Shown: piece by piece, positions 13,017 to 37,362 of the stretch | Layout of the letters: each line of letters begins with the position of its first letter | Numbering within the stretch: the first letter of the stretch is position 1 | Origin: a virus | Virus record (IMG/VR): IMGVR_UViG_3300010401_000013 | Location: 1 to 51,075 of that record | Reading direction: 5' to 3' (one strand) | Length of the DNA: 51,075 bases | The notes under the pieces: generated by a model | The model's database searches: none | Seen by the model: the letters and a program-made list of their open reading frames with translations, nothing else | What the model was told of the DNA's origin: nothing | Translations under genes and position numbers: made by a program

Positions 13017-13340
13017 TTACTTGGTTACGTGTGGTCCGAAATGTTCCAGCAGCTTGATACCAAGTTCTAAAGCAGCTATTATGCCACCACCTGCGTAGAT
13101 TATCCGTTCTGTCCTTTTAAATGCTGGAATCAAATCCTCGTTAATTACCTTCTGCATTTGTTTTGTTCCTTCTCGCAATCCCTGATTCTCATCTGTCCCA
13201 TAAACTGTAGCATTAAGTTTGTCAACATGTTCTTTCATGGTTTTCCGCTCAGCTTCAGCTAATTGAGTTTTGATTTCTAGGTCGTTGATGCGACCAGATA
13301 ATGCGTTAATCTCGTAGAATTGTTTCGTATCATCTTCCAT
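13017..13340 (-). CDS. Coiled-coil membrane protein, XhlA-like holin accessory
   Basis: 107 residues: residues 1-70 form a charged coiled coil (GRINDLEIKTQLAEAERKTM) and a single membrane helix lies near the C-terminus (ERIIYAGGGIIAALELGIKL). This layout is that of haemolysin XhlA-type proteins found in phage lysis cassettes. Sits between the tiny 24-residue membrane peptide and the holin-like gene, spaced 1 and 16 bases. Confidence 0.5.
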   Translation of the reverse strand: MEDDTKQFYEINALSGRINDLEIKTQLAEAERKTMKEHVDKLNATVYGTDENQGLREGTKQMQKVINEDLIPAFKRTERIIYAGGGIIAALELGIKLLEHFGPHVTK

Positions 13341-19409: not shown

Positions 19410-19492
19410 GTTAGCGGTTCCTGTAATCCCTCCTTGAAGGATGGCCTGAGAAGACTGGCCGCAAAATAGAAATCCTAGATAACTAAAATGCT

Positions 19493-19529
19493 AAAGCTAC
19501 CTAAGCATCAAGTATGCCAAGGTAGCTTT
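19493..19529. repeat. 10-bp inverted repeat enclosing the capsid promoter-like site
   Basis: AAAGCTACCT (19493-19502) and AGGTAGCTTT (19520-19529) are perfect complements around a 17-base spacer that contains the -24/-12-like element. As RNA it would form a hairpin after the scaffold gene; as DNA it is a dyad operator around the promoter. The 11-mer AAAGCTACCTA recurs at 26441-26451 in the divergent control region. Confidence 0.7.
19504..19519 (-). promoter_or_regulatory. Sigma-54-like promoter for the capsid unit
   Basis: Minus strand TGGCATACTTGATGCT: a -24 TGGCA and a -12 TGCT with the diagnostic GG-N10-GC spacing. Transcription would start near 19493, ~138 bases before the capsid ATG. 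It lies in the only long gap of the virion operon. Confidence 0.55.
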
Positions 19530-19554
19530 GAGCAACTGACTTTGGAGTTGAAAA

Positions 19555-20820
19555 TTACTCTATTTCACCTTTCAACCGCCTAAATGTATCCTCATTGATT
19601 TCAGGCACGACCGACTGTTGCCCATTAGTCGTCCTGCTTGCTCCACTATTCGCTGCTGTCGCTGTTGGTCCTGCTTGTCGAGCATTCTGTTTACTTACCG
19701 CAGCACCATTTTCTTTGTTCCTCAGCAATTTCACCATCTCCAGAGACTCCATCGCCAAGGTTGCCATATGCACGGCAAACGGCCATAGAACATTCTGCTT
19801 GCTGACTCCAATCTTCAACATTTCCGTCTCTACCGCCGACAATTTCTTCTTACCATCGTCCGACTTGTAGATGTCTTTGCAGACAAAATCGATTGCCCGC
19901 TGGACATTCTGTTGAACTTGGGCATTCTGTTGCTTGTGTTGGTTGACGAATCCATCAAGCTTCCCTTGAAGTCCTTGCTTGTGTCCACTAATTGCCGTCA
20001 AGTTTCGCAATAAGGTGATTTCCGCCTCAGGACTCGCTACCTGTTTCGGTCCTTGGACGATTCCACCCTTTCCATCGTCATGCAGGTTTGTCCATTCTTT
20101 CCCGTTCTTAACATTCGTCAATTGCTGAACGTAATGAGCCTCCACTTTCTCAGCGGTTGTCAACTCGTTTGTCAACTGTCCAAATTCTGGGGTTAGTACA
20201 TAAGCATTCTCAGCCTCATAGTAAGATCGTTGTGCCTCCTTGCCGTCAAAAGACTTGACCTTGCCCTCTAATTCGGTTGCTTTCGCCTTAAGTGCCTCAT
20301 GCTCGACTTTCGTCTTCTCATACTCTTTCAACAATGGAGCAACCTTCGAGAAGTCATTGTTATGCAAAGACTTTGCAACCTCCAGCAGGTTTCCCGACAA
20401 TCCTGAATAGTCTCTTGCAGACTGTTTTCCTGTCGTTACTTTAGGTGGCTGAGACTGTTGCTGCTGCCCTTTACTCTTGTCCTCAGGTGTGCCCTCAGGT
20501 GTATCCTCAGACAGGCCGTCGCCAAGGAGTTTCTTCATCCGCTCCAAGCCTGCATCTTCGCTATTTTCCGTTTCTGGATTCTCGTCGAGAGTTGCCTGTC
20601 GCTTAGGGGCTTGGTCAGTGGTTACTGGTGCATTCTCGGTGGTTGTTGTGGTTGCTTCTTGTGATTCCTCCTCACCACCTGTCCCATTCTGCATCTGTGC
20701 GAATGATGTTGCAGAGGTGGACGAGACTGGTGTTGACTTACTTCCACCTGCCGCTCCAAGTAAGGCTAGCGGTCCTGAGGCTGCTGCCGGCGCTGCTTGA
20801 TTACTGTTGTCGTCTGGCAT
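19555..20820 (-). CDS. Scaffolding protein (probable)
   Basis: 421 residues, very hydrophilic. Residues 1-130 are a disordered Ser/Thr/Gln/Glu-rich tail with DTPEGTPED. Residues ~150-200 are a coiled coil (EYEKTKVEHEALKAKATELE). The C-terminal half is helical and ends in a charged segment. This composition and the position between portal and capsid fit a scaffold that shapes the procapsid and then leaves. A 25-base stretch inside it (20481-20505) is exactly repeated, inverted, at 32736-32760. Confidence 0.7.
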   Translation of the reverse strand: MPDDNSNQAAPAAASGPLALLGAAGGSKSTPVSSTSATSFAQMQNGTGGEEESQEATTTTTENAPVTTDQAPKRQATLDENPETENSEDAGLERMKKLLGDGLSEDTPEGTPEDKSKGQQQQSQPPKVTTGKQSARDYSGLSGNLLEVAKSLHNNDFSKVAPLLKEYEKTKVEHEALKAKATELEGKVKSFDGKEAQRSYYEAENAYVLTPEFGQLTNELTTAEKVEAHYVQQLTNVKNGKEWTNLHDDGKGGIVQGPKQVASPEAEITLLRNLTAISGHKQGLQGKLDGFVNQHKQQNAQVQQNVQRAIDFVCKDIYKSDDGKKKLSAVETEMLKIGVSKQNVLWPFAVHMATLAMESLEMVKLLRNKENGAAVSKQNARQAGPTATAANSGASRTTNGQQSVVPEINEDTFRRLKGEIE

Positions 20821-20823
20821 AAG

Positions 20824-21120
20824 TTACTGACTTTCGATTAGGTCTGAGGTTCCTGTTTTGATTTGTTTGATACACTCCTCTAAGGTTGCTGCTACCGTCA
20901 CTGCACGCAACAATGCTAAATGCTCATGCTGTCGCTTGGAGATTTCAACCATCCGTTTCTGCTTTGTCACCAATATGCTTTCTAGTTCCCGCAACAACGC
21001 CTGACAACCTTCCTGTGCTAGAAACTGCTTACGCAGAAGGTTGCGGACTTCCTGAGGTTGGGACGTTAGTGGACTGGTTAGATGCTGGACTTGCTCCAGA
21101 GTTGGATTGCTGTTGACCAT
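20824..21120 (-). CDS. Small helical protein overlapping the portal gene end
   Basis: 98 residues, mostly helical with a Lys/Arg/Glu pattern (LVTKQKRMVEISKRQHEHLA). Its first ~30 codons overlap the end of the portal gene in another frame, and its stop is 3 bases before the scaffold ATG. Family not recognised; an assembly accessory role is inferred from position. A shorter start inside the overlap cannot be excluded. Confidence 0.5.
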   Translation of the reverse strand: MVNSNPTLEQVQHLTSPLTSQPQEVRNLLRKQFLAQEGCQALLRELESILVTKQKRMVEISKRQHEHLALLRAVTVAATLEECIKQIKTGTSDLIESQ

Positions 21121-22930
21121 TTTGTTGATTAGGTTGTGGTTGAACTCCTGCTAGCTGTTGGGCTGCCTGTATCATCTGTTGCACTTGTTGCACTTTGTCA
21201 GGCATGATCTTGGCAATATCAGGGAGCATCGCCTGAACAACTTGTGACAGTGCAAGCAAGGTATTCTTCATCATGTCACCCTGTTGCAACAATAGCGCAA
21301 AATCTTTGCCGTCCTCTGGCAACAGGAGTTCCAGAAACTTCTGCAAGTATGACGAGACGATTGTTGTTCCCTGTATCATTGGCCATGCATTTGCCATTTT
21401 CGTCAAGCGATCCTGACGCTTGATGACATCGGAGTCGCCTGCTGCAAGGACTCGATAATGCTGGGCAAGGACCATTTGGTCATTATCAATTAACAACTCT
21501 GGCTCTGTCTTGCCCGGAAGTGTTGTCATCACCTTCTTGCCAACCAGATAGATTATATTCTGCTGCGCCAAGTTTTTTGCAATCTTGAAGATAAACGTAT
21601 ATGCTTGGTGGATGAAGTTGCTATACATCGATATGCTGATACCGTTCAACGACTGCGTATCCTCCACACTAGCATCTACTTCTGCTGCCGTTGGTCTTGT
21701 CCTTCCCGTTTTTGACTGCAAGGCTGCCGTTGCCTGTCCTGCATCTTGCATCTGATTGGTCCTGCGCAATTGCAAGAACCTCATGAAGTTGGGGTCAGAG
21801 GGCGGAAGATTAAAGAATCCAATCTTCTTGTTGTAAACTAATCCTGTCCTGATTTTAACAGAGGTCTCCTTCAATGCCGATCCCTGCGATTCTGGGTCGT
21901 CAAGGTATGCATAGACACCGGACCCACGCACGAAGTTATTGGCTAACGCTGACATTCCTGTCGTCTGAAGTTCTTGCTCAAACTCCTGCAAGAAGACAAT
22001 TCCACGCGACAATCCCAATTCCTGTTGTGAGGTCTGGTAATATTGATATGCGAAGTAGGGTAATTCTATCAGACCTACAGGTTGCCACTGTTCTTGCTGT
22101 GGAACTGGCGGAACTCCAGGTAGGGGTAGTTGTTGTGCTGCCTGTTGTGCCTGTCCAAACTGTGGATTTGGAATCTTGAATCCTAATTCCACCCGTTGAG
22201 GTTCACGCAACCACTTCTTAGCATCTCCATCTTTCGAATACCACAGGCTGTAGATCTGATTACCGTCGTCGCTATTCTTGTAGGTTACTTTATAGACAAT
22301 GAACAGGAAAGTCAGAAAATCCTGCTGTTCTTCACGACTTTTCACTAAAGCATCCACAACTTCCTGTGAAAATCCAAACTCTACCACCTTTTCTTGCAAC
22401 TGATCGGCGGTATATCGATAGATGCGAATAACACAAGAATTGTCATCCATCTTGATTGCTCGACGGTTGTAGATGAAATCTAGGGGCGAAACAAACTCAA
22501 GTGCAAGCTTCAGAGGTTTCGTCTCATCGTAGACAACTTCTGCAAATGCAATTCCGTGTGACAATCCTGCGTCGATGATCTTATAATGTTCTGTCAACCA
22601 TCCATTATATTTGCATCCTGTGTTGAATGCTGTTTCCAAAACCGCAGGATCATCGTCGGGAAAGTGGACGTTATCGAGTTTTACCAAGCGTGGACCAGAA
22701 AGATAGCTCAGAAATGCCGGAAGTTCTCGACGAATGGTGCTATCGATCACCCTGTCGGGAATCAACGTCTCGTCACTCAACAACCGACCATTCACTCGCT
22801 CTTCCTCCACACTAACATCCACAAACCTGGTGTCGTTCTCGCTTCGATAGACAGGTTCCACCTGTGTTATGAAATCAGAAATCATCTGCGAGAACTTCTT
22901 GGAGGACTTGTCGTAATCGAAAAGCTTCAT
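21029..22930 (-). CDS. Portal protein
   Basis: 633 residues from ATG 22930; an upstream in-frame GTG at 22957 would overlap the terminase gene by 22 bases and is less likely. It follows the large terminase and precedes the scaffold, the classical portal slot. It shows the long alpha/beta body of T7/P22-sized portals, with a segment LEFVSPLDFIYNRRAIKMDD typical of head-tail connectors, and a disordered Gln/Asn/Ser-rich C-terminus. It would form the dodecameric ring through which DNA enters and leaves the head. Confidence 0.75.
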   Translation of the reverse strand: MKLFDYDKSSKKFSQMISDFITQVEPVYRSENDTRFVDVSVEEERVNGRLLSDETLIPDRVIDSTIRRELPAFLSYLSGPRLVKLDNVHFPDDDPAVLETAFNTGCKYNGWLTEHYKIIDAGLSHGIAFAEVVYDETKPLKLALEFVSPLDFIYNRRAIKMDDNSCVIRIYRYTADQLQEKVVEFGFSQEVVDALVKSREEQQDFLTFLFIVYKVTYKNSDDGNQIYSLWYSKDGDAKKWLREPQRVELGFKIPNPQFGQAQQAAQQLPLPGVPPVPQQEQWQPVGLIELPYFAYQYYQTSQQELGLSRGIVFLQEFEQELQTTGMSALANNFVRGSGVYAYLDDPESQGSALKETSVKIRTGLVYNKKIGFFNLPPSDPNFMRFLQLRRTNQMQDAGQATAALQSKTGRTRPTAAEVDASVEDTQSLNGISISMYSNFIHQAYTFIFKIAKNLAQQNIIYLVGKKVMTTLPGKTEPELLIDNDQMVLAQHYRVLAAGDSDVIKRQDRLTKMANAWPMIQGTTIVSSYLQKFLELLLPEDGKDFALLLQQGDMMKNTLLALSQVVQAMLPDIAKIMPDKVQQVQQMIQAAQQLAGVQPQPNQQNGQQQSNSGASPASNQSTNVPTSGSPQPSA

Positions 22931-22935
22931 GGCTG

Positions 22936-24606
22936 TTAATTCTTCAATTGCTTCCACCTGTTACGTGTGGAGGAGTTAGATCGTGAGTTGATTAATGTTC
23001 CGAGATTCAAATAGCAGAGTTGCTCTTGCTTATGCGTGGATTGGGAAGACTTCAAGTATCGCGACCAAGCTTCTTGCGTGTCACGTTCTTGCGTGGATAC
23101 ATGGGTATCTACCACTTCTGCCGTTCCCACAAAAGCATCCGGCTTCACATTCGCATACGCGAGAACATAGGCATCCGCGCGGTCTGGTGATCCATGCCCG
23201 CGTAATTTTGCATCAATCTTTGACTCCAAACTCATGACGCCTGCGTCTGACGGCTTGTTGAAATACCTGTTGCTCAACTGGTCTTTCAACGTCTCGTCAT
23301 GCTTGGGGATGATTAAGGTTCTGTGTTGTAGATGCAACTTGACGTTGTAGTATAATTCTATTCCGCGGTTCCTGAACCTTGCTGGATTAGCTGCTTTAGA
23401 CTCATTCCGCAACCTTCTAATTGGCCACCCTCTATCTGCAAGCATGGTAATCAGTGCTCGTCCTAATCCACCCTCATCACCGTTCACATTATCGGGCACA
23501 AGACCTTTTGCCCGCCACTTATCAAGAAACGCCGCAAGCCTATTGACTACGTAGTTTGCGTCCTTGTTCCTGAAGAACTCTACGTCAACTACCATGTTGC
23601 CATCTATGATGTATCCTCCGCATTCATCTCCACCAATCGACAGGGAGAAGTCAATTCCTGCACGTAAGATTCCCTCACCTTCTCGCTTGTGTGCTGGTGG
23701 ATGTAGGATCAAGTCGTCAATTAACGCCCTACTGATTACTGTCGTTTCCTCCTGTGAGGTGAACTCACTCCAGAATTGGCTACGCAATATTGCATCTCCT
23801 GCACCGTAATATCCTTGATCGGCTTCTGCTTTCTCTCGTGAGATGTGGGGACATTCATCTATGGTCACCTTGCGAAATGAATACTTCCACGCTTGTCGTG
23901 GTTGTCGCATCTCTATCGCATCTCGATAGTGTTTGTAGAAATCTCCACCTGTGGAACCTGCTGACGACACTTCTATCCAGTAGTTGTAGGTGCATCGATT
24001 CAGTCCCCGGAAGTTGCCTGTTGGGATGCCCTTGGCTTCGTTCAAGACGATTGCACAGTCTCGTCCTGGGGAGTCGTCAAACGGATGGTAACCTTCCGCT
24101 TTATTTGCCTCGTCTGTCACGAACATGTAAATCTCGCTGCCTGTCAAGGTGCAGATAATATGCTGCTTTCGTATGCGGAAGAACTCGCCACCCATGTTCT
24201 TGTTGATGCATTCGCATAGCCTTACGATTCCTGGTTCAGTCTGGGTATTCAGCTGCTTGAAGGAACCTGACGTGATGATGCATCGACTACGGATTTTGCA
24301 ACAGGCGAACCATACAGCGAATAAAGCGATGCAATAGGCATCCTTGCCTGAGCCATTTGCTGCAAGTAACAAGAACTTGCACGGGTCCTCAATGCTAAAC
24401 GGCTGCTCACAGATAAACGTGGAGATTTCCTTCTGCCAGTCGTAGAGGTCTTTCTTATGAGTAGCCAATTCCGGCAATGCCCAAATGCCCAATTCTGCAT
24501 AGCTGGTGAACGCCAGTGGTGCATACTGGTTGCCTATCTCACCAAGAATCTCTCGATACTCGTCGTTCGAGAATTCTGTGGTAGTTGTTGTGTAGTCGGC
24601 GAGCAC
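22936..24606 (-). CDS. terL: Terminase large subunit
   Basis: 556 residues. ATPase domain: Walker A LAANGSGKDA at ~81-90, Walker B-like CAIVLNEA at ~184-191. Nuclease domain: acidic strand AGIDFSLSIGGDECGG (~305-320), NVNGDEGGLG (~360) and the C-terminal SPDRADAYVLAYAN (~490), matching the RNase H-like metal-binding acids of terminases. It pumps DNA into the procapsid and cuts it. The GTG start at 24606 abuts the stop of the upstream gene. Length matches the family. Confidence 0.9.
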   Translation of the reverse strand: MLADYTTTTTEFSNDEYREILGEIGNQYAPLAFTSYAELGIWALPELATHKKDLYDWQKEISTFICEQPFSIEDPCKFLLLAANGSGKDAYCIALFAVWFACCKIRSRCIITSGSFKQLNTQTEPGIVRLCECINKNMGGEFFRIRKQHIICTLTGSEIYMFVTDEANKAEGYHPFDDSPGRDCAIVLNEAKGIPTGNFRGLNRCTYNYWIEVSSAGSTGGDFYKHYRDAIEMRQPRQAWKYSFRKVTIDECPHISREKAEADQGYYGAGDAILRSQFWSEFTSQEETTVISRALIDDLILHPPAHKREGEGILRAGIDFSLSIGGDECGGYIIDGNMVVDVEFFRNKDANYVVNRLAAFLDKWRAKGLVPDNVNGDEGGLGRALITMLADRGWPIRRLRNESKAANPARFRNRGIELYYNVKLHLQHRTLIIPKHDETLKDQLSNRYFNKPSDAGVMSLESKIDAKLRGHGSPDRADAYVLAYANVKPDAFVGTAEVVDTHVSTQERDTQEAWSRYLKSSQSTHKQEQLCYLNLGTLINSRSNSSTRNRWKQLKN

Positions 24607-24882
24607 TTAATTATTCGTCCAGAAGGATAGTGTCTGGTTGGTCAAGAGATGGTCGTGATAGGCATTAGTCAACTGCTGCCAGTATTTCTCTGGAATCAGT
24701 GGAATTAACGTGTGCTCCCATTTCAATGCCAGTTGATTCGTTAGTTTTAACATTTCTCCCGGCTTCACATACACTATCGTAAGATTCTTTGACTCTGTCC
24801 AAGTGATGTCACTGCTCTTGGTTGCTGCTGCAATTGTTGACCCAAGAATTAGACTGGCTACCAGTAATTTTGTTTTATTCAT
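24607..24882 (-). CDS. Small exported protein with signal peptide
   Basis: 91 residues from ATG 24882. Residues 1-21 (NKTKLLVASLILGSTIAAA) are a Sec signal peptide; the mature ~70 residues are soluble with many Asn/Trp/Tyr. Its stop touches the terminase GTG. An upstream in-frame start at 24960 would put 26 charged residues before the signal and lies inside an inverted repeat, so it is disfavoured. Function unknown; a periplasmic role during infection or lysis is plausible. Confidence 0.5.
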   Translation of the reverse strand: MNKTKLLVASLILGSTIAAATKSSDITWTESKNLTIVYVKPGEMLKLTNQLALKWEHTLIPLIPEKYWQQLTNAYHDHLLTNQTLSFWTNN

Positions 24883-24905
24883 ATTGTCGTTAGCACGAGA
24901 GAAAA

Positions 24906-24993
24906 CCAACTCAGTTTGTTTCTCGAAGTGTGTGTTCATGGATGACTCTCTCACAAGCATCCGTCCTCAAGGTCCCTCCTTCAACTGAGTTGG
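24906..24993. repeat. Long-range 11-bp inverted repeat upstream of the exported protein
   Basis: CCAACTCAGTT (24906-24916) and AACTGAGTTGG (24983-24993) are perfect complements, with an inner GGATG/CATCC pair in the loop. On the minus-strand RNA this would fold into a two-stage hairpin between the membrane-protein gene and the signal-peptide gene, followed by a short T-rich run. Possible attenuator or processing site. Confidence 0.55.
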
Positions 24994-25000
24994 TTTAAAA

Positions 25001-25177
25001 TCAAGGCAGGTAACCCTTCACAGCCCACGCAAACATGGTGGTTGTCGCTAACCACAATGGCGCATAAATCCAGATTGGCCACCGGGGTTTGTCATGCTCA
25101 ACCAAGTCTGCTGAAATGATGAATAGCATGCCTGTCACGAAAGTTTCGCAACCTAAACAGAAGCAGAATGTCAACAT
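25001..25177 (-). CDS. Two-helix membrane micro-protein
   Basis: 58 residues from ATG 25177, which follows the TGA of the upstream 43-residue gene by one base. Two hydrophobic helices (LTFCFCLGCETFVTGMLFII and IWIYAPLWLATTTMFAWAV) flank a charged loop. A longer frame from a TTG at 25258 would overlap the upstream gene. Role unknown; could be holin-like or an exclusion protein. Confidence 0.5.
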   Translation of the reverse strand: MLTFCFCLGCETFVTGMLFIISADLVEHDKPRWPIWIYAPLWLATTTMFAWAVKGYLP

Positions 25178-25178
25178 A

Positions 25179-25310
25179 TCAATATCCCATCCATTTAAGT
25201 ATCTTCCAAATGAGAGTTCCCACAAGACCAACAATCCCAATGCAGCACAATACTGCAACCAAGAATGTCCAGAGCTTTGCTCCTTGATAGATGTCGTGTT
25301 GGGTGGGCAT
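25179..25310 (-). CDS. 43-residue single-helix membrane protein
   Basis: Starts at ATG 25310, 4 bases after the terminase small subunit stop, and ends one base before the next ATG. A membrane helix at ~14-34 (WTFLVAVLCCIGIVGLVGTL) is followed by a Lys/Trp anchor. Tight spacing on both sides supports translation. Function unknown. Confidence 0.5.
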   Translation of the reverse strand: MPTQHDIYQGAKLWTFLVAVLCCIGIVGLVGTLIWKILKWMGY

Positions 25311-25314
25311 AATG

Positions 25315-25974
25315 TTATTCAATCACCGAAGCTTCCTCAATGATGGTTACCGGAGTCTCAATCACAGCACCAACTTCATTCACGGTCTTAATGACGTTCG
25401 GGTTGTTCTGGTCCAAACTTCCAGGTCCGATTCCTCGTGCTCGTCGGATGGCCTCATTTAACTTCAGAACACTAATTTGCATGAATTCCCGGGCAGGGTC
25501 GTTATAGGAGTTCCCGGCTTGTGAGTAGTTGTTCCGCTTGTCTTTAATCAAGACGTTCGATGCTTTGATTCGGACATGCTCGTCTGGGCTGCTCAATGCC
25601 AATTCCAACAATCCCCGACAAACCATCCTATATTCCTCGTCGGTGATTGCCGATTGCAAGGGAACACCATCCGCTTTACGGATGTCCACTTCATATCCTG
25701 TTGCTCGTCGACTACTACCGCTATCCCCATTGAATGATGGCCCACCATTCCCATTCGCTGCCACTGCTCTTTGCCGTGAAGCATCTTGTGCCAGCCGTTC
25801 TGCCTTCGCCATAAGTTCTGCTTTCACAGCTTCACGATACTTTGCACTGTTGTCATTCAGCAATTTTTTAACAACACCCGTATCCAGCTTCAACTCCGTG
25901 GCGATGCGATCTATGGTGAGCCCGGTCTGCTCATACATAGTCTTCGCCAACATTGTTGCTAGTTGGGTGTTCAT
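25315..25974 (-). CDS. Terminase small subunit-like DNA-binding protein
   Basis: 219 residues. Residues ~15-45 form a helix-turn-helix (GLTIDRIATELKLDTGVVKK), followed by a Lys/Arg/Ala helix and a Gly/Ser linker, then a mixed C-terminal half. Small terminase subunits have this N-terminal HTH and recognise the packaging site. The large subunit lies three small genes downstream. GGAG sits 10 bases before the ATG. Confidence 0.6.
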   Translation of the reverse strand: MNTQLATMLAKTMYEQTGLTIDRIATELKLDTGVVKKLLNDNSAKYREAVKAELMAKAERLAQDASRQRAVAANGNGGPSFNGDSGSSRRATGYEVDIRKADGVPLQSAITDEEYRMVCRGLLELALSSPDEHVRIKASNVLIKDKRNNYSQAGNSYNDPAREFMQISVLKLNEAIRRARGIGPGSLDQNNPNVIKTVNEVGAVIETPVTIIEEASVIE

Positions 25975-25978
25975 CTTA

Positions 25979-26242
25979 TTATGCCTCCGCTCCTGTCCAC
26001 TGCTTAACGTCTTCCACCTTCAACCCCACCGGTTTTACCACACTTACCGCTCCCGCCAAGTCACCCAGGCCGTTGCTCTTCTTCATTATTCTATCCACCT
26101 GTTTCTCTGTTTCCCTCTCACACTCTTTTACCACTTCCACTATTTCAGGCCTCTCCCAAAACTCGTCCATCGCCCGCCTAACAATCTCCCTGCTCGCTTC
26201 TACCACCATCCCACAAATTTCTTTCTCTCCAGTTGTCAACAT
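25979..26242 (-). CDS. First gene of the late operon, unknown helical protein
   Basis: 87 residues from ATG 26242 (an in-frame GTG at 26248 and an internal ATG at 26209 are alternatives). Charged amphipathic helices (SREIVRRAMDEFWERPEIVE and a Glu/Lys coiled segment). Directly downstream of the best sigma-54-like site (26254-26269): the predicted start near 26243 would make the ATG at 26242 leaderless, or favour the internal start. Family not recognised. Confidence 0.45.
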   Translation of the reverse strand: MLTTGEKEICGMVVEASREIVRRAMDEFWERPEIVEVVKECERETEKQVDRIMKKSNGLGDLAGAVSVVKPVGLKVEDVKQWTGAEA

Positions 26243-26253
26243 GCTCACATCTG

Positions 26254-26269
26254 AGCAATATCCCTGCCA
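26254..26269 (-). promoter_or_regulatory. Sigma-54-like promoter of the virion operon
   Basis: Minus strand TGGCAGGGATATTGCT: -24 TGGCA and -12 TTGCT with GG-N10-GC spacing, the closest match in the window to the TGGCAC-N5-TTGC consensus. It is the first promoter-like site before the 26-kb leftward operon. Confidence 0.6.
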
Positions 26270-26574
26270 GTGTTAATGGAGTTTAGTGATCTTATCATTT
26301 TAGGTTTCTTGGGGGTGTAAAATTTGTGAGTGGTTCATAGTAAGAGGTTTTCGAAAATTTCGATTCGCTTTCGCTACTCAGTATATACTCAGTCTATATT
26401 GTGATAGTGTCTACGTTAACGATAACGGACCGGTAACGATAAAGCTACCTATGGGATACCAATGCGTCAAATTTTCACGCATAAGGCGTGAGATTCACGC
26501 GTGCAAGATGCAATGGACCACTACAGGTTGTAGTATGGTGAAGTAGGTATACCACATATAGACATTGGCACGGG

Positions 26575-26590
26575 TGGAGCGCAGGTTGCT
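26575..26590 (+). promoter_or_regulatory. Sigma-54-like promoter of the rightward leader
   Basis: TGGAGCGCAGGTTGCT keeps TGG, TTGCT and GG-N10-GC but departs from TGGCA. Predicted transcription start is near 26601, the first base before the large hairpin at 26602-26684. Weaker match than the other sites. Confidence 0.35.
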
Positions 26591-26601
26591 ATGTTAGGTC
26601 A

Positions 26602-26684
26602 CTGTGTGGAGCTAGTCCCTAGCGTTCAATGGTTAGGCCTGTGCTAACCATTGGCCGCTGAAGACAGTAGCTCCCAGAGCACAG
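26602..26684 (+). ncRNA. Long bulged hairpin, structured 5' leader or small RNA
   Basis: Nested perfect stems CTGTG/CACAG, GGAGCTA/TAGCTCC, AGCG/CGCT and CAATGGTTAG/CTAACCATTG (26627-26636 with 26644-26653, 7-base loop), separated by small internal loops, form one 83-base rod. There is no coding potential. Its 5' edge coincides with the predicted start of the 26575 promoter-like site. Not a tRNA: no T arm precedes the TAGCTCC strand. Confidence 0.5.
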
Positions 26685-27047
26685 TCCCAGCTTGGTTTAC
26701 ATATTCGGACACTTAACCAGTGTTACAGCGGGCGCGGACCTTGACAGTCCATTCTGCCGCAGAAGCAAGTAAGAGCCACTGTATATAGTGGATAGCTCGG
26801 AAGCGGCTACGTAATCAATCGTAGGTTCCATGCATATATAACGGGAATGATCCAAAGTAATGGATGCCATAAGCGGGACCATAGGTTGATGACTCGCTTG
26901 ACCATGAAACGGAATCCCTCGGAGTAGGTCAAGACTCTCGAACAATAACTTGACCGAAGCTTGACAATTGATAGTGACAAAGCAATGACTCGCCTAGTCG
27001 AGCATAGAGTAGCTTCCCTTGTGAAGTGAAAGCTAGAATCAATTGTC

Positions 27048-27093
27048 GAGTCTTCTCAACAGTCGACATGAAGTCGACTGTTGAGCATGACTC
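27048..27093 (+). promoter_or_regulatory. Stop-to-start hairpin element 1
   Basis: Outer stem GAGTC/GACTC (27048-27052, 27089-27093), a 2/3-base internal loop, then a 13-bp inner stem (27055-27067 with 27073-27085) closing a 5-base loop. The start codon at 27095 follows one base after the outer stem; there is no room for a Shine-Dalgarno sequence. Same architecture as elements 2 and 3. Confidence 0.75.
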
Positions 27094-27094
27094 T

Positions 27095-27268
27095 ATGAAG
27101 CTGGTAAAATACAAAGATAAGGAGTATTACGTTGAGGAGTTTCAAGATTTCATAACAGGCGAGAAAACCTTTGAAGCGGCATCTGTTGATGTTAATATTC
27201 ATGCGTATGGCATAACACCGGAATTGGCATTAGAACGCTGCCACAAAGCGGCACTAGAGAATGAGTAG
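27095..27268 (+). CDS. Small early protein 1, unknown
   Basis: 57 residues from ATG 27095, soluble, mixed alpha/beta (KYKDKEYYVEEFQDFITGEK). First gene of the rightward arm. The start sits at the foot of hairpin element 1 and overlaps the stop of a mini-frame ATG ACT CTA TGA (27087-27098), suggesting translation by reinitiation. The gene's stop TAG is itself part of hairpin element 2. No family recognised. Confidence 0.55.
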   Translation: MKLVKYKDKEYYVEEFQDFITGEKTFEAASVDVNIHAYGITPELALERCHKAALENE

Positions 27269-27315
27269 AGTCTTCTGGCGGAATGGCAATAACGTCGTTT
27301 CGCCAGCATGACTCT
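27267..27315 (+). promoter_or_regulatory. Stop-to-start hairpin element 2
   Basis: Outer stem AGAGTC/GACTCT (27267-27272, 27310-27315), small internal loop, inner 9-bp stem CTGGCGGAA/TTTCGCCAG with one G-U pair, 14-base loop. The 5' strand uses bases of the previous stop codon and the 3' strand ends directly at the next ATG (27316). Confidence 0.75.
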
Positions 27316-27492
27316 ATGACGCAGCATCAGGTAGTTAAAATCCATCTTGACGGCAATCGCCAAGTCAAGCAAGTTGAATACCTACACGGAACAATTGTCA
27401 ATATTAAATCCCGTGATATGACAATTAAAGAGTGTATGGAACTCATGGCCAGCTTGGGCGCATATATCGTCAAACAAACAATTGGGCGTTAA
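27316..27492 (+). CDS. Small early protein 2, unknown
   Basis: 58 residues from ATG 27316, beta-rich N-terminus and a C-terminal helix (TIKECMELMASLGAYIVKQT). Preceded by the same 12-base ATGACTCTATGA as gene 1, again making a three-codon leader frame that ends on the start codon. Stop TAA 27490-27492 lies in hairpin element 3. No family recognised. Confidence 0.55.
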   Translation: MTQHQVVKIHLDGNRQVKQVEYLHGTIVNIKSRDMTIKECMELMASLGAYIVKQTIGR

Positions 27493-27538
27493 GCCCTTTC
27501 AACTGTCGCAATCACGTTGACAGTTGAACAATGCTTAA
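27489..27538 (+). promoter_or_regulatory. Stop-to-start hairpin element 3
   Basis: Outer stem TTAAGC/GCTTAA (27489-27494, 27533-27538), internal loop CCT/CAAT, inner 10-bp stem TTCAACTGTC/GACAGTTGAA, 11-base loop. Stem sequences differ completely from elements 1 and 2 while the layout is kept, i.e. pairing is conserved rather than sequence. The last stem base is the A of ATG 27538. Confidence 0.75.
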
Positions 27539-27981
27539 TGAACACCGAAATTCAAACACAGCAACAAGACAACTCTACGCTCGCCTTTCCCATTGCTGGC
27601 ACTCCCCGTTTCCAACTGGACGCCTCCGGGATGAAATGGCGTGACTATCGGAAGGCGGCAGGAATCGACGATAAGTCACCAATGGACAAGGTGAAGGCGG
27701 CACAGAAGGAATTCAAGGCGCAACAGAAACAGGCGTTCAAACAGGCGAAGCAGTTGGCAGGGTTGTTAATCAATGATGACAGCTTCCGGCAGGTGAAACT
27801 GACCTGTCATACGGATAAGAAAGGGTATCGGGTATTCTCCGTGCGTGGAACCACAAAGGCGCTGAAGGTTCCTAAAGCGTTGGCGGACGAGGCTGAGAAA
27901 CCTGTTAGTGAAATGAGCGTGGAAGAGCTTGAAGCAATCATTGCAGAGCGGAAAGCTGTGGTGACTGTGGAAGCGGCCTAA
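27538..27981 (+). CDS. Early protein 3, basic helical, unknown
   Basis: 147 residues. Residues ~45-80 are a Lys/Gln/Ala helix (KVKAAQKEFKAQQKQAFKQA), the middle is beta (KLTCHTDKKGYRVFSVRGT) and the C-terminus is a Glu-rich helix. Base composition is more GC-rich than the flanking small genes. The ATG at 27538 is at the base of hairpin element 3; an upstream TTG at 27517 lies within the hairpin and is rejected. Abundant Lys could suggest nucleic-acid binding, unproven. Confidence 0.55.
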   Translation: MNTEIQTQQQDNSTLAFPIAGTPRFQLDASGMKWRDYRKAAGIDDKSPMDKVKAAQKEFKAQQKQAFKQAKQLAGLLINDDSFRQVKLTCHTDKKGYRVFSVRGTTKALKVPKALADEAEKPVSEMSVEELEAIIAERKAVVTVEAA

Positions 27982-28048
27982 GTCAATCGAACAAGAGCTT
28001 CTTGTGAATACAGGAGGCTCCTTTCGGTTTACTTCAACACTCAATAAC

Positions 28049-28174
28049 ATGATAACCATCACCATTACTAACGGCGTGGATACTTACACAAAAGAAGTTG
28101 CTCCTGCGGAGATTGACGAAGTCATTGCCTTCTGTGCTCTTGGATTCTGGCGGATTGTCGCGGTGAACGCTTAA
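28049..28174 (+). CDS. 41-residue protein, unknown
   Basis: Frame from ATG 28049 to TAA 28174, beginning with alternating Ile/Thr and ending VAPAEIDEVIAFCALGFWRI. The 67-base gap before it contains ACAAGA/TCTTGT and AGGAG/CTCCT hairpins. Short and unassigned. Confidence 0.45.
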   Translation: MITITITNGVDTYTKEVAPAEIDEVIAFCALGFWRIVAVNA

Positions 28175-28229
28175 AATTCCACGATGCCTACCGTGGCGAC
28201 GGCCTCCTGGGTTTCTTAGTGGTTGTGTT

Positions 28230-28316
28230 ATGAATCCACATCGTGCATTGGAACGGAACTTGGTGATTCTTCTGCTACTATCTAGCGTTCTACTTGCCAT
28301 TAAACTCCTCTCATGA
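28230..28316 (+). CDS. 28-residue membrane micro-protein
   Basis: One hydrophobic helix (LVILLLLSSVLLAIKLLS) after a short charged N-terminus. Its TGA overlaps the next ATG (ATGA, 28313-28316), the standard coupling in this genome. Function unknown. Confidence 0.45.
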   Translation: MNPHRALERNLVILLLLSSVLLAIKLLS

Positions 28317-28495
28317 TTCTCAAACGCAAGATTCACCCACCACGCAAAATCACCAGAATCTTTCCACAACGCACAACTGTCTATTACTTTCCTGTTAGTT
28401 GGACACTTGATGAGAAATTGGCTTTCGTTTGCAAGCGATGGCCTCGAAAAGTTGTAGGATTAAGACCAAAGACGCTAGAAATCTGGTTGAAATAG
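28313..28495 (+). CDS. Basic 60-residue protein, unknown
   Basis: Lys/Arg-rich (LKRKIHPPRKITRIFPQRTT), coupled to the preceding micro-protein by ATGA. Last gene before the origin-like block; a GCCAT/ATGGC hairpin with a pyrimidine run follows at 28538-28560 and may end this transcript. Confidence 0.5.
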   Translation: MILKRKIHPPRKITRIFPQRTTVYYFPVSWTLDEKLAFVCKRWPRKVVGLRPKTLEIWLK

Positions 28496-28958
28496 AATGA
28501 GAAATTAGCCCTTTCATAAAACTTATCAAGTTGTTATGCCATTTTATGGCCTTCTTCTTATTCTTTATCTTTTTTATATATTTTTTTATATTTTTTTTCT
28601 TTTTTAATAACTTTTTAGCAGGAAGTTCTTGGTGAGACTTGATTTGATAAAGTGGCATAAAGTGGCATAAAACGGTGTTAAATCGGCATAAAATGGCATA
28701 AACATAGATAGGGAAAAAGAAAGAAGTGATAAGGAGAGATAAAGACATAGGATGGAATGTGAAAAGGGGTTAGCAGGAATTTAGCAGTGTGGTAGTGGTG
28801 ATTTAGGAATGTCTTCTTTTTCCATAAGATCTATAGGCCAATTTATGCCCAATTATGCCAGTTTATGCCACTTCCCGGGCGGGAATGGCTGAAAAGGTCG
28901 TGCTAAAAAGATATGAGAAAAGAAATGAATCATAAGGCGGAGATAAAGGATGCATAAG
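28496..28958. other. Candidate replication origin: iterons around an AT-rich tract
   Basis: No gene. An ~80-base stretch of almost pure A/T (28541-28620) is flanked by repeats of TGGCATAA(A): direct copies at 28653, 28663, 28684 (CGGCATAAA) and 28694, and inverted copies (TTATGCC) at 28534, 28842, 28853 and 28862. Iterons beside an easily melted tract are the usual make-up of a replication origin. The initiator that would bind them is not identified. Confidence 0.6.
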
Positions 28959-28974
28959 TGGCATGATAAGTGCT
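28959..28974 (+). promoter_or_regulatory. Sigma-54-like promoter for the 29-kb gene block
   Basis: TGGCATGATAAGTGCT: TGGCA-N7-TGCT with GG-N10-GC. Predicted start near 28985, upstream of the genes beginning at 29010/29066. Its -24 half resembles the neighbouring iterons, so an iteron remnant is an alternative reading. Confidence 0.5.
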
Positions 28975-29009
28975 AAATGCGAGGACAGTTAGTAGTTATC
29001 AGATCACCT

Positions 29010-29069
29010 ATGAATAAGCATCAAAGGGAAATTAATAAGCTGTTCAGACAAAGAAGCGTGACAATATGA
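29010..29069 (+). CDS. 19-residue basic leader peptide (tentative)
   Basis: ATG 29010 opens a short frame (MNKHQREINKLFRQRSVTI) whose TGA overlaps the next ATG at 29066 as ATGA. It would be the first frame of a transcript from the 28959 site. Too short to be sure of. Confidence 0.3.
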   Translation: MNKHQREINKLFRQRSVTI

Positions 29070-29338
29070 GAACAATCTACAAATATCCAATAGCTAGCAG
29101 GGACCAACAAACCATCCAGATGGGCCACAATGCAAAGCCAATTGCTGTGCAGTTTCAGCATGGAGTATTGTGTATTTGGGCAGAGGTGGAGAATCATCCA
29201 TTGTATGCAAAACTTCCAACAAAAGTGACGGTGTCCATCTACGGCACTGGACACCCACTACCAGACGAAAGCTTGGAAGAGCGGTATCTTGGAACGGTGC
29301 AACAGGATGGTCTAGTTTGGCATGTTTATACGTTATGA
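29066..29338 (+). CDS. DUF7352-like phage protein
   Basis: 90 residues. The opening MRTIYKYPI, the middle HNAKPIAVQFQHGVLCIWAE and the 'YGTGHPLP' block match a widespread small phage family (DUF7352) of unknown function. Coupled by ATGA on both sides. An early accessory protein by position. Confidence 0.75.
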   Translation: MRTIYKYPIASRDQQTIQMGHNAKPIAVQFQHGVLCIWAEVENHPLYAKLPTKVTVSIYGTGHPLPDESLEERYLGTVQQDGLVWHVYTL

Positions 29339-29520
29339 ATGAAAATAATCTACCAGTGGTTGAATTCACAATGTGGAAATCAACAGGAGGCTACAACATC
29401 AAATGTGTTTGCCACTCACGAGGATACTTGAAGATATGGAACTACATTCCAGCCTTGAAGCTGGCATCAGCAATAATCGAGAAAGTCTATAAAGCTATTG
29501 AAAACTCCACAGATTTATGA
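29335..29520 (+). CDS. 61-residue protein, unknown
   Basis: Starts at ATG 29335 inside the TGA of the DUF7352 gene and ends in the ATGA of the next. Beta-rich first half with two Cys (NIKCVCHSRGYLKIW), then a C-terminal helix (LKLASAIIEKVYKAIENS). A longer in-frame start overlapping the DUF7352 gene is rejected. Family not recognised. Confidence 0.5.
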   Translation: MNENNLPVVEFTMWKSTGGYNIKCVCHSRGYLKIWNYIPALKLASAIIEKVYKAIENSTDL

Positions 29521-29795
29521 ACCCACCAATTAACCTACCACTCACTATCCACGTCACGCAAGAGGACATAGACGAGGGAGTCCAAGAAGATTGCGAGAGA
29601 TGTCCAGTGGCAAGGGCAGTAGAACGAGCAACGGGCATTTCAACAGTTGTGCAATTTGAGAGAATCTCTGTTAACTGCCAAAACAAAGTAGTATTCGTAA
29701 CACCAACATACGTCAGAATATTCATCAAGGCATTTGACGAAACAAGACTCGTAACACCATTCAGCTTCACCCTAACCGAGAATGACCGCGTATGA
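29517..29795 (+). CDS. Small phage protein with CxxCPxAR motif (paralogue of 33586)
   Basis: 92 residues. The pattern VTQEDIDEG ... CERCPVARAV, a variable beta segment with VN, and a C-terminal PFSFTL is common among small phage proteins of unknown function. The gene at 33586-33864 shows the same layout, so the two are probably old duplicates. Coupled by ATGA to both neighbours. Confidence 0.6.
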   Translation: MNPPINLPLTIHVTQEDIDEGVQEDCERCPVARAVERATGISTVVQFERISVNCQNKVVFVTPTYVRIFIKAFDETRLVTPFSFTLTENDRV

Positions 29796-30046
29796 CAACC
29801 ACCACGTTAATCACCATTCTCAAGCAACTTCCCGAACAGGAAGTGACAACAGGATTGTTAGCGGCATATGGAGTGCTGAACAATCCACAGGAGGAGTTGG
29901 ATGCTGAGTTTAAAAAACTTGAAGGAATGCTCTCGGGTGACGACAGGCTAATGCCTGGTAGAGAATCAGACTTTGTAAAGTCTCTTTCGAAGGTTAAGCA
30001 TCTTCGGAAGTTCATTGAGAATATTAAATACAAAGCGACAACATGA
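29792..30046 (+). CDS. 84-residue helical protein, unknown
   Basis: Mostly helical and acidic in the middle (QEELDAEFKKLEGMLSGDDR). Coupled by ATGA to both neighbours. A GG-N10-GC match inside it (29862-29877) is considered chance. No family recognised. Confidence 0.5.
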   Translation: MTTTTLITILKQLPEQEVTTGLLAAYGVLNNPQEELDAEFKKLEGMLSGDDRLMPGRESDFVKSLSKVKHLRKFIENIKYKATT

Positions 30047-30219
30047 AAAACTGCCATATCCGAATCACGTTATCCAGCACCTACACAATCGCAACAATTC
30101 AATGGGTAGACTCAACCACAGGAAAAGTCAAAGGAACCTTTGGACGAGAAGAAATCTGTAAGTTAATCTACATCCTGGGAAGGAGACTAAGTGGACACAA
30201 AAGTAAGCCAACAATCTAA
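30043..30219 (+). CDS. 58-residue protein, unknown
   Basis: Frame from ATG 30043 (overlapping the previous TGA) to TAA 30219. Beta strands followed by a basic helix (EEICKLIYILGRRLSGHKS). Last gene of this coupled run; a promoter-like site follows at 30256. Confidence 0.5.
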   Translation: MKNCHIRITLSSTYTIATIQWVDSTTGKVKGTFGREEICKLIYILGRRLSGHKSKPTI

Positions 30220-30255
30220 GGCATAACAACCAGATAAAGATTCTTAACAACCAAC

Positions 30256-30271
30256 TGGCATGCAACCTGCT
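30256..30271 (+). promoter_or_regulatory. Sigma-54-like promoter upstream of the 30295 gene
   Basis: TGGCATGCAACCTGCT: TGGCA-N7-TGCT with GG-N10-GC, in the 75-base gap between two gene runs. TAACA and TGTTA lie on either side. Predicted start near 30282, beside a five-codon frame (ATG 30281) whose TGA overlaps the next ATG. Confidence 0.5.
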
Positions 30272-30294
30272 GTTAGACGCATGTCCTCAATCTC

Positions 30295-30804
30295 ATGAAA
30301 GACAAACAAACTATAGACGCAACAGGTGTCAAGATGCACAAGGTGGAGTTGACAGATAGGGAAGTCACATTCTTAAAAGACGCAATACATATTGTGATGG
30401 AGACAGAAACAGGAACATTTCTGTGTGGTCTAGAGGAATGTGTGAACATCCTAAAGAAGCTTGAAGACAGTATCAAACAAAAATCTCCATCCAAACCTCT
30501 CCGTTGGTTTCTCTACAACCAAAATAATTCAGGTAGAGAATTCGTCAAAGACGATAAAGTCGATGAATATGTCTTCATTGAGGCACACGGCGCAACGGAG
30601 GCAAATGCTCTCGCAGAGAAGCTCGGAATCTATTTTGATGGCTGCCAGAAAAAAATAGACTGTTTTTGTTGTGGAGATAGGTGGACAGAATGTTGGGTAG
30701 ATGAACATGGAACAGAGACAGTGGAACTCTACGGCAAGCCACTAGACGCCAATAGAGCAGGACGCAGCAAAATCTGGAATTACGAGACGTTGAGGAAACT
30801 CTAA
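30295..30804 (+). CDS. DUF7296-like phage protein with zinc-like CxCCGDRW motif
   Basis: 169 residues. Residues ~70-169 carry WFLYNQNNSG, YVFIEAHGATEANALAEKLG, YFDGCQKKIDCFCCGDRW: the signature of a common phage family (DUF7296), with Cys residues that may bind metal. The first ~65 residues (EVTFLKDAIHIVMETETGT) are an extra helical module. Function unknown. Confidence 0.7.
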   Translation: MKDKQTIDATGVKMHKVELTDREVTFLKDAIHIVMETETGTFLCGLEECVNILKKLEDSIKQKSPSKPLRWFLYNQNNSGREFVKDDKVDEYVFIEAHGATEANALAEKLGIYFDGCQKKIDCFCCGDRWTECWVDEHGTETVELYGKPLDANRAGRSKIWNYETLRKL

Positions 30805-30810
30805 GACAAC

Positions 30811-31098
30811 ATGAAGACAGTTATCTTATCTGTCAAAGACGTTCAACGCCTACGAACACTTCTAGGAAAGAGTGAAAAGATTAAGAAATTCAACAGTCAT
30901 AAATGCTTCCCACTGTGCGAAAATTGTCTGCCAATAAACACACTATTGAGTAGCCTGTGGAATGCTTGGTATGACAACCGAGAAACAGGAAAGAAACCAA
31001 CAATAGAGCTATCAGATAGCATGTTAAAGATTTGTATCGCCGCACTTCCAGAGAAGTCGAAAGATCAGATAGTGAGGGCATTAAGGAAGAAACTCTAA
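30811..31098 (+). CDS. 95-residue protein with Cys/His cluster, unknown
   Basis: The middle has HKCFPLCENCLP, a possible zinc site, between helical ends (VKDVQRLRTLLGKSEKIKKF and KSKDQIVRALRKKL). Six bases after the previous gene. Family not recognised. Confidence 0.5.
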   Translation: MKTVILSVKDVQRLRTLLGKSEKIKKFNSHKCFPLCENCLPINTLLSSLWNAWYDNRETGKKPTIELSDSMLKICIAALPEKSKDQIVRALRKKL

Positions 31099-31100
31099 TT

Positions 31101-31147
31101 TTAATCAACCAGCGCTCTACTGGCGATTAATTAGCAACGGCTAGAGC
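31101..31147 (+). promoter_or_regulatory. Hairpin with possible pseudoknot, and sigma-54-like site
   Basis: TTAATC/GATTAA (31101-31106, 31125-31130) encloses CCAG/CTGG with loop CGCTCTA. The loop bases GCTCTA (31114-31119) are complementary to TAGAGC at 31142-31147, allowing a pseudoknot or a competing fold. Overlapping it at 31121-31136, TGGCGATTAATTAGCA has GG-N10-GC spacing (weaker -12). An A-rich leader then runs to the ATG at 31185. Confidence 0.45.
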
Positions 31148-31184
31148 ACAACAAGAACCAAACAAACAAGCAGAAAGAAACAAT

Positions 31185-31829
31185 ATGTCAGATGGAACTC
31201 CAGTTAGTGGAACACCCGTAGCGACCGCAGAGGGAGAAAAGACAGTCAAAGAAATCAAGCCCCTTTATGTCGAGGGCACAAACGAGGATATCCGCAAGGT
31301 AATCCCGATGCTTGATCCAGTCTCCCGTAATGGCGTATCCTGCGCCATCAACGCGGGACAAACGAAACACGGGCAAAAGCAAGGTCGGTATTACATGAAG
31401 CTCAAGGTTGAGGACTTGTCGTATCCTGACCTTTTGCAGTTTGTGGGTGAATCGGAAGTCAAGGGCATTCTGGTGAAGGAACTTGCCCTGCTCTGTCGTC
31501 AGTGGACCGATCAAGCATCGTCCATGAATGCTGAGGGTAAGGTTTCTCTCGAAGTCTGGAAGACCTGCGCTCAGAATCTCCTCGTTGTTCGTGTCAGCTT
31601 GGAGTCTCTCCAGGAGCAACTGGACACTGCATTCGAGGAGTTCACAGCGTTGTTTGGTCCAGATGGCGAATTGCTGCCTGACTCGCCTGACACCAAGCCC
31701 CAAGATACCAACAAGGCGAAGTTCATGCAGTATCTTGGACGCACTCGGGAGTTGCAGAAGCAGATCAGCAAAATTGAGGCAGACAGGGCGGCCAAGAAGC
31801 AGGGTGGCAGTGGTAATGGGTTGGATTGA
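31185..31829 (+). CDS. 214-residue protein with C-terminal coiled coil, unknown
   Basis: Soluble protein with a flexible Thr/Gly/Pro N-terminus, a central alpha/beta part (YYMKLKVEDLSYPDLLQFVG) and C-terminal coiled coil (SLESLQEQLDTAFEEFTALF; LGRTRELQKQISKIEADRAA). Its codons are more GC-rich than the adjacent small genes and it has its own promoter-like site and A-rich leader, so it may be abundant. Family not recognised. Confidence 0.55.
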   Translation: MSDGTPVSGTPVATAEGEKTVKEIKPLYVEGTNEDIRKVIPMLDPVSRNGVSCAINAGQTKHGQKQGRYYMKLKVEDLSYPDLLQFVGESEVKGILVKELALLCRQWTDQASSMNAEGKVSLEVWKTCAQNLLVVRVSLESLQEQLDTAFEEFTALFGPDGELLPDSPDTKPQDTNKAKFMQYLGRTRELQKQISKIEADRAAKKQGGSGNGLD

Positions 31830-35469: not shown

Positions 35470-37362
35470 ATGGACCTCCCCAAAAACTTTGACTTGTCCT
35501 TGCTGCCACCTGAGAACCCTGCGTTGCAATCTAATCGCCTAGAACGATTTCAGTATAACGCATCAAACAAGCTTTGTTATGCCTTCCTCGTCGCCGGTAA
35601 GTCTGCCATCCAGCTAATTGGTGGAACCGGCGTAGGAAAAACATGGATAGGTGGCAACTTCCTGGCACGCCTGAAAGCAGCAGGCAAGGATCGTGCACCA
35701 CACAATACATTCACACCTTATCCTTTTTGGTGGATAACCACAGCAAACTGTGTGGAACCGGTTCGTAGGGAACTCACCCAAGGGTTTGGCTTACAAGAAT
35801 TCGATGACTTTTGGGTAACCAACTACGATCAACTCCGGTCAAAAGAAGGTGAGAAGTTCTTCAGCGAGAAGACCGTAGTGCGAGATGGCGTAGAGGTTCT
35901 TGAAGTGGTTGTGCAGCATCGTCTCCTTCCCCGTGTAATCATCATCGACGAATCCCAGAAAGTCAAGAATCCAAAAACCAAGCAGCATCGATACATTCAG
36001 GCGATAATCAAACTTCCCAGGGAGATTCGCCCATGGATCATCTTCATGTCGGCAACACCCTGGACACGGGTGATTGACGCTAAGTGTTTCGTGACAGCAT
36101 CGGAGATTCCATTGCTTGGCTTCCCCGTAGATGATAGCCATTGGGATGAAGTCTCCGCAAATATCTCAACCGACGGTGACCCAATGCTGCATTCGCCGAA
36201 GGCAATCGGGACACTAAGGGATTTGAGTGAGGATTGGATCATTGACATCCCAACCATTACCGGTAAGTATCGTGCCTACAACTCCTGTAAGTTGATTGAC
36301 TTTAAGAATGTGGAAAGCCGGGCAAGGTATCTTGCAGCTTGGGAGAGGTTCGAGCAGAAGTGTGCAAAAATGGGGAGAGATACACCTAACGGCCACTTCG
36401 AGGAACTTGTGGCTTTGGGGCAATTCAGGCAAGCAGCGGAATTGGAACGTGCAGAAATCTTTGCGGATGAAGCTGTTAGCAGGTTGGCCAAAGACAACAA
36501 GTCCATCATCATTGCCGCCGCTTTTCGCGGAACCATTGCACGCTGTGTCCGTTATATGATTAAGAAGCATGGCGTCAAGCGTGAGGATATATCTCTTATC
36601 TGGGGAGGCGACGATTCCTTTGAGCAATCTGGTCGGTTAACGCAGAAGGAGATCATGGACTACGGGTTTCGGATTGCTAAGGGTGAGAAACTCCCCGAAG
36701 CTATCTGGCGAAAGCTGAATAAGGAATTGGCCACAGCAGATGAGGATGTCCAAGAGATTAAGGAACTGGCGGGTGTAAAGTTAGACTTAGGCAGCCAATC
36801 CCGAGAACAACGACAACGGGAAATTGACAGGTTCCAAACCTCTCGCACGAGGATTTGCCTCTTCACCCAAGCATCTGGTGGAACTGGGGTTTCCCTACAT
36901 CACACCAATCAGTGGTTTGAGGTATTCTACAAGAAGCATTTCACTTGCTTAAATCCTACCGAAGCACCAGAGCATCGGGAATATCGATCGAACGCTACAG
37001 GCAAGGTCTTTCGCTCTTATCCCAGGTATGTGATGGTGACGCCCACATATTCCGGACAAGACTTTGTCCAGACACTTGGACGAGGGCATCGGTCAATGTT
37101 TAGTTTGTCAGACACGTATCAAGATGTTTGCTGGTTCCGTAATACAAAGGAAGAGGATGTCATGGATATTGTCCAGACAAAATTGCATTGCCTATCGAAA
37201 GCCATCAAGCAACGAGAAACGTGGCATGACGTTCTGCGTAAGCCCAAGAAGGAACGGATGGTTGATCCTGCGGAAGCTGCCTTGAAAGCTGTGAATGAAG
37301 AATACATTGCAGCAGATGGAGATGTTAACGAAGGAGAGAGTGAACAGGAGGAGAATGAATGA
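35470..37362 (+). CDS. SNF2/DEAD-like superfamily 2 helicase
   Basis: 630 residues. Motif I GGTGVGKT (51-58), motif [10 protein letters not shown] (~157-163), motif III SATPWT (~194), a second RecA-like lobe with SGGTGVSLH (~470) and motif [12 protein letters not shown] (~535). The DESQ box and the GxGHR arginine pattern fit SNF2/DEAH-like DNA translocases of phage replication modules. Probable role: remodelling or unwinding DNA during replication or recombination. Coupled by 4 bases to the sigma-54-type activator gene. Confidence 0.75.

Follow-up and report, generated by a model that had tools for sequence, protein, structure and literature searches.

Phages retarget the host RNA polymerase through new sigma factors, anti-sigma factors, antiterminators or polymerases of their own. 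In T4, gp55, gp33 and gp45 redirect the host polymerase, and the virion genes are switched on together. The closest bacterial systems to the phage locus considered here are the sigma-54 promoters, which read TGGCAY-R-N4-5-TGCW with GG-N10-GC, a pattern also found in the phage, and the activators of the NtrC, PspF, NifA and FleQ families, which share with the phage protein an AAA+ domain with Walker A and B motifs, a GAFTGA loop, an arginine finger and sensor II. A C-terminal enhancer-binding helix-turn-helix (HTH) is usual, though not universal, in bacterial enhancer-binding proteins. DctD250, which consists of the AAA+ domain only, needs no enhancer to activate sigma-54 promoters (PMC3844500), and Chlamydia CtcC is a natural sigma-54 activator that has no DNA-binding domain (PMC7482065). 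Among phages, PHROG 7998, filed as of unknown function, gathers genes that encode the AAA+ domain of sigma-54 activators, and phage MT121960 (DP SC_2_H4_2017) carries a 304-aa form of the activator without an HTH; for neither is a promoter set recorded. In the 38.7 kb of MT121960 that was read there is one strong site, and this phage was not placed in the family described below. A limited check of the literature, with few subscription journals or preprints covered, found no phage sigma-54 regulon described.

We analysed a window of 51,075 nt of virus DNA (IMGVR_UViG_3300010401_000013, record positions 1 to 51,075). A sequence-only reading of this DNA had proposed a set of sigma-54-like promoters served by a phage-encoded activator, and that activator is real (Table 1). 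Its protein scores 182.5 bits against Sigma54_activat, for which the curated cut-off is 20.2, and its nearest solved structures are the AAA+ domains of NtrC, FleQ, NifA and PspF. Walker A (GETGTGKE), Walker B, the sigma-54 contact loop of the GAFTGA type (GSFTGA), the arginine finger and sensor II (GNYRE) are all found. Just 56 residues lie ahead of Walker A and 16 past sensor II, and neither a regulatory domain nor a C-terminal HTH or other DNA-binding domain was found in the protein. Thus, unlike the bacterial activators, the phage protein is encoded in a lytic-type phage genome and lacks both the enhancer-binding HTH and the regulatory domain. It is a natural protein, whereas DctD250 is a laboratory construct engineered from DctD, and it has no regulatory domain, whereas CtcC keeps one and serves a bacterial regulon. 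Sigma-54 itself (Sigma54_AID PF00309, Sigma54_DBD PF04552) was not found in the window record in a search that detected its positive controls; since the phage encodes no sigma-54, the sigma must be the host's. In contrast to T4, which replaces sigma, the phage would therefore keep the sigma-54 of its host and supply only the ATP-driven activator. The helicase-like gene directly 5' of the activator gene overlaps it by 4 nt, and the two probably form one operon; in 22 genomes, no sigma-54 site was found between the helicase and activator starts.

Six promoter sites had been proposed. The four main ones are present exactly as described, TGGCA-N7-TGCT with GG-N10-GC: 26254-26269 (-), TGGCAGGGATATTGCT; 19504-19519 (-), TGGCATACTTGATGCT; 28959-28974 (+), TGGCATGATAAGTGCT; and 30256-30271 (+), TGGCATGCAACCTGCT. 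All four are intergenic and oriented toward the adjoining gene block. The plain string is non-specific because it is also found in genes, with three exact copies at 8180 (-), 13071 (-) and 41809 (+), and with at most one mismatch it gives 25 matches against 14.6 expected; a matrix scan was therefore used. The 18-position matrix was trained on the 29 sigma-54 sites listed as intergenic for Salmonella (PMC3844500 Table 3), which are independent of the window phage and score 15.9-23.0 themselves. The highest score in the window belongs to 13069 (-), which had been overlooked; it lies 69 nt ahead of gene 12587-13000 and within the 3' portion of gene 13017-13340. It is followed by 19502 (-), 28959 (+) and 26252 (-), and then by 16487 (-) and 30256 (+), both at 14.5; the four strong sites are the window's four top intergenic matches. 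The two weaker proposals, 31121-31136 (+) and 26575-26590 (+), score -5.5 and 8.7 and are not supported as sites. The proposed set accordingly stands for four of its six members, and the gene-internal 13069 has to be added to it. Five window sites have GG at -24 and GC at -12 with the exact N10 spacing and score in or near the promoter range.

The capsid site, 147 nt upstream of the capsid gene start, has a predicted transcription start near 19493 and a leader of ~138 nt, and the 26252 site a predicted start near 26243. The capsid leader (19356-19534 (-) region, 138 nt) folds better than shuffles (z -2.5). The low score of the 26252 site with the family matrix is due to its TGGCAG, which is absent from 45 family capsid sites; 28959 is the window's best site with that matrix. 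At 30256 the estimated leader is merely ~13 nt, with no clear ribosome-binding site. Overall, compared with the sites of the family, those of the window itself score at the weak end of the range or lower still.

Table 1. Predicted promoters and associated genes in the window (scores refer to the Salmonella and family matrices)
Feature	Coordinates	Strand	Evidence
Putative sigma-54 -24/-12 promoter of major capsid gene	19502..19519	-	Salmonella matrix 17.1; site conserved in family
Putative sigma-54 promoter, head of terminase/virion operon	26252..26269	-	Salmonella matrix 15.4; family matrix only 9.4
Putative sigma-54 promoter, head of rightward (replication) arm	28959..28976	+	Salmonella matrix 16.6; family matrix 18.1
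Putative sigma-54 promoter before 30295-30804, rightward arm	30256..30273	+	Salmonella matrix 14.5; family matrix 17.5
Probable further sigma-54 promoter	13069..13086	-	Salmonella matrix 19.1; family matrix 17.2
Minimal sigma-54 activator (AAA+), 249 aa	37359..38108	+	Sigma54_activat PF00158, E 6.6e-54
Helicase-like gene directly 5' of activator	35470..37362	+	phrog_62 DNA helicase, E 1.3e-14
Major capsid protein (predicted), 468 aa	17949..19355	-	Homologues in 22 relatives; predicted structure
Terminase large subunit	22936..24606	-	tblastn to annotated Akkermansia phage terminases, E 2e-38
Gene ahead of terminase	25315..25974	-	Homologues are the first genes behind a sigma-54 site in relatives

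The comparison with the shuffled window, a check that the sequence-only reading had itself suggested, came out in favour of the sites. Four intergenic matches reach 14.4 against 0.115 expected, and none of 1000 shuffles attained this number, a figure that is slightly flattering because the threshold was placed just under the weakest of the four sites; at a stricter threshold of 15.3, three intergenic matches are found against 0.064 expected. In the whole window, six matches score at least 14.4 (0.83 expected; at most four in 300 shuffles), and the reversed window sequence gives none. Five control phages, none of them among the activator search matches listed, gave no match in 172 kb, compared with 5.7 per 50 kb in the phage family. 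Matches to sigma-70-like promoters in 26100-31300 are no commoner than chance, and for this reason no early promoter is named.

Relatives of the phage were not found by single-protein searches of IMG/VR with the window capsid, activator, terminase and polymerase, nor by a two-row activator profile run against the same collection. A degenerate DNA pattern for the region of the GAFTGA sigma-54 contact loop retrieved 76 IMG/VR contigs, which split into host-like activators with an HTH and a short class, many members of which lie on 47-56-kb contigs. From the short class, 28 contigs were read piecewise. Terminase, portal, capsid protein and tail genes, as well as helicase, split DNA polymerase, exonuclease and activator, are common to the window and 18-27 of the 28, and the window is therefore a divergent member of an uncultivated phage family with genomes of ~50 kb. 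None of 50,697 phage records contains a relative of the window's capsid protein. The capsid assignment is based on a predicted structure of moderate confidence, which matches the phage N4 capsid (E 3.2e-9, prob 1.00) and also resembles other HK97-fold capsids. The similarity of the terminase to those of Akkermansia phages no more than hints at a host in the Verrucomicrobiota. An attempt to find the host by capsid homology in GTDB genomes yielded two 8-kb contigs in unrelated bins, one of them a Saccharibacterium, and is not believed. In 50 distinct family activators, the Walker motifs, the arginine finger, the G[AS][FY]TGA loop and the sensor II arginine are near-invariant, with a median of 17 residues past sensor II; these are short AAA+ proteins, almost always without a regulatory or DNA-binding domain. 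The family's activators cluster together in the tree with weak support.

Across the 28 contigs, 136 sites score at least 14.4 against 21 expected, 92 of them intergenic (2.5 expected). Upstream of the capsid gene, the best sense-strand match lies above threshold in all 20 scorable relatives, with a median score of 19.8 and mostly 110-210 nt from the capsid start. By comparison, each of 13 other gene families has an upstream site in just 0-2 genomes. Moreover, when spaced word pairs were counted de novo across 18 capsid leaders, TGGC-N8-TGCT and GGCA-N7-TGCT came first, each in 18/18, where the same count on shuffled leaders reaches a maximum of 5. This recurrence bears on the view that the matches arose by chance and were picked by eye, which could appeal to the copies of the plain string within genes and to the failure of two of the six proposed sites. 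The shuffles, the reversed sequence, the family conservation and the de novo discovery all speak against chance; it is refuted for the capsid site and deserves almost no credence for the set, though a single site such as 30256 is still possibly a chance match.

Conservation also bears on the capsid site being primarily a transcription terminator, with the promoter match as a by-product. Indeed, the 19502 site, which lies between the scaffold gene and the capsid gene, is covered by a 16-pair hairpin (-25.3 kcal/mol, z -4.9) that is followed by TTTT on the minus strand. However, relatives have the promoter site at this place but do not share the hairpin. Both may operate, as read-through RNA could end at a hairpin that embeds the new promoter, and the terminator as the primary role is very improbable.

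Promoter sites also recur elsewhere in the family genomes. A site no more than 2.5 kb before the terminase, at the operon head, is found in 13 of 19 genomes, and rightward-arm sites before the helicase in 17 of 22, the window included in both cases. Of 14 further genomes that were scored, four have sites in the capsid-to-tail segment, where 13069 lies in the window. The gap behind the activator gene holds a site in 16/20 genomes and lacks it in the window. Just behind the activator, 18 relatives (L111, L089, L148 and others) encode an unknown protein family of ~205 aa that has a sigma-54 site of its own and is absent from the window. Family sites cluster at operon heads and are rare within operons; in contrast to the bacterial promoters, the phage sites head virion operons. 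For 30256 and 13069 the proof is weaker, consisting of the score together with arm-level or segment-level conservation, and they are best regarded as candidates.

This distribution also bears on whether the TGGCAT words, and in particular that of the 28959 site, represent repeat copies from a replication origin (the TGGCATAA iterons, 28650-28873) instead of promoters. Several TGGCATAA-like repeats in both orientations do lie beside an AT-rich stretch within ~300 nt of 28959. Nevertheless, the iterons have no -12 half and obtain no score in the matrix scan, an origin repeat cannot account for the capsid and terminase sites, and relatives too have rightward-arm sites, all of which leaves this explanation only a slim chance.

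Because the first contigs had been picked for having the activator, a new search was made with the capsid profile alone. A strong site precedes the capsid gene in 54 of the 77 loci so obtained, many of which are the same contigs or near-copies of one another, and a further 15 have a weaker GG-N10-GC site. Equal-sized shifted windows elsewhere give 0-1 matches in 61-74 loci. Eight loci have no capsid-leader site, and six of these (L209, L211, L223, L231, L234, L235) have a strong site before an upstream gene of ~1000-1240 aa. The activator is encoded in all 32 of the longer capsid-sampled records tested (40-55 kb). Thus, a large phage family has kept both the promoter set and the activator, and this holds even with sampling that is blind to the activator. 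Many of the loci with the weaker site belong to a subgroup (L179, L181, L184-L187, L193 and similar) that has TGGCATATCGTTAGCAAW before the capsid gene, with TAGC in place of TTGC at -12, and also a divergent activator; perhaps both reflect a different host sigma-54.

The joint occurrence of activator and promoters is relevant to the question of whose activator they serve. The sites might answer to the host's own stress or nitrogen activators, with the phage protein doing something else, such as inhibiting or decoying host sigma-54 transcription. The phage activator does lack a DNA-binding domain, and at promoters with enhancers full-length activators outperform truncated ones (PMC3844500). 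On the other side, the ATPase and sigma-54-contact motifs are all kept in the 50 distinct activators, and family members that have the promoters also have the activator. A small chance is left to this possibility.

Several other features of the genome were recorded. The divergent region 26210-29065 (~2.8 kb) is rich in short inverted repeats and poor in convincing genes, and 28530-28875 within it is origin-like, with opposed TGGCATAA repeats round AT-rich DNA. An enhancer role for the 12-mer TAAAGCTACCTA, found near 19491 and 26440, was rejected, AAAGCTACC not being over-represented and the activator having no HTH; likewise, the dyad round 19502 was rejected as a conserved operator or terminator, as relatives do not share it. 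The family A DNA polymerase is encoded in two ORFs, 44321-45955 (+) and 48693-49730 (+), separated by ~2.7 kb that include a DNA ligase; both halves have homologues in 23-24 relatives, and no intein sequence was found at the break. A 96-nt tRNA with a long insert or variable arm lies at 32280-32375 (+) (44 bits in Rfam; missed by ARAGORN) and overlaps the 82-aa ORF 32210-32458, which may therefore be false. The 1153-aa virion-arm protein encoded at 13423-16884 (-) has a lipase-like region (residues 304-567) and a region annotated as polysaccharide deacetylase (1040-1150), and is possibly a receptor-degrading tail protein.

Taken together, it is very likely that the sites are genuine -24/-12 promoters for the host sigma-54 RNA polymerase, fired by the activator that the phage supplies. 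The proposal of sigma-54 promoters with a phage activator is thus supported, but 'late' does not describe all of the sites, as two of them head the rightward replication arm. We infer that transcription from the sites depends on host sigma-54, and we infer its temporal order as follows. Host sigma-54 holoenzyme would sit at the phage sites as silent closed complexes while activator produced from the helicase-activator operon builds up; by hydrolysing ATP, the activator would then open these complexes. Having no DNA-binding domain, it would act from solution and without enhancers, as DctD250 does. The capsid, terminase and further blocks would come on together, coupled to the build-up of the activator. 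The rightward-arm sites upstream of the activator gene could feed back positively on the activator operon, in which case the first round of activator would need a sigma-70 promoter or a host activator. Moreover, nothing in the activator would direct it to particular promoters, and host sigma-54 genes should therefore be activated as well.

Judging from these sequence features, the phage very probably delays its virion genes until it throws a switch of its own. Phage retargeting of the host polymerase is in itself already known; a route in which the phage provides the ATPase for the ATP-driven sigma-54 pathway is, as far as could be checked, undescribed. It offers a checkable reason for the presence of such genes in phages, where they are filed under PHROG 7998 as of 'unknown function', and it supplies natural sigma-54 activators without a DNA-binding domain together with matching promoters. 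We consider the wider reading evenly balanced, namely, that the virion programme of a widespread uncultivated phage family is built on the host sigma-54 pathway, and that the family's enhancer-free activator opens all sigma-54 promoters in the cell, those of the capsid and terminase operons and of the entire host regulon, at once. The sigma-54 promoter reading predicts rpoN-dependent infection and narrows the possible hosts; if the wider reading is true, such phages would be obligately restricted to rpoN-bearing hosts.
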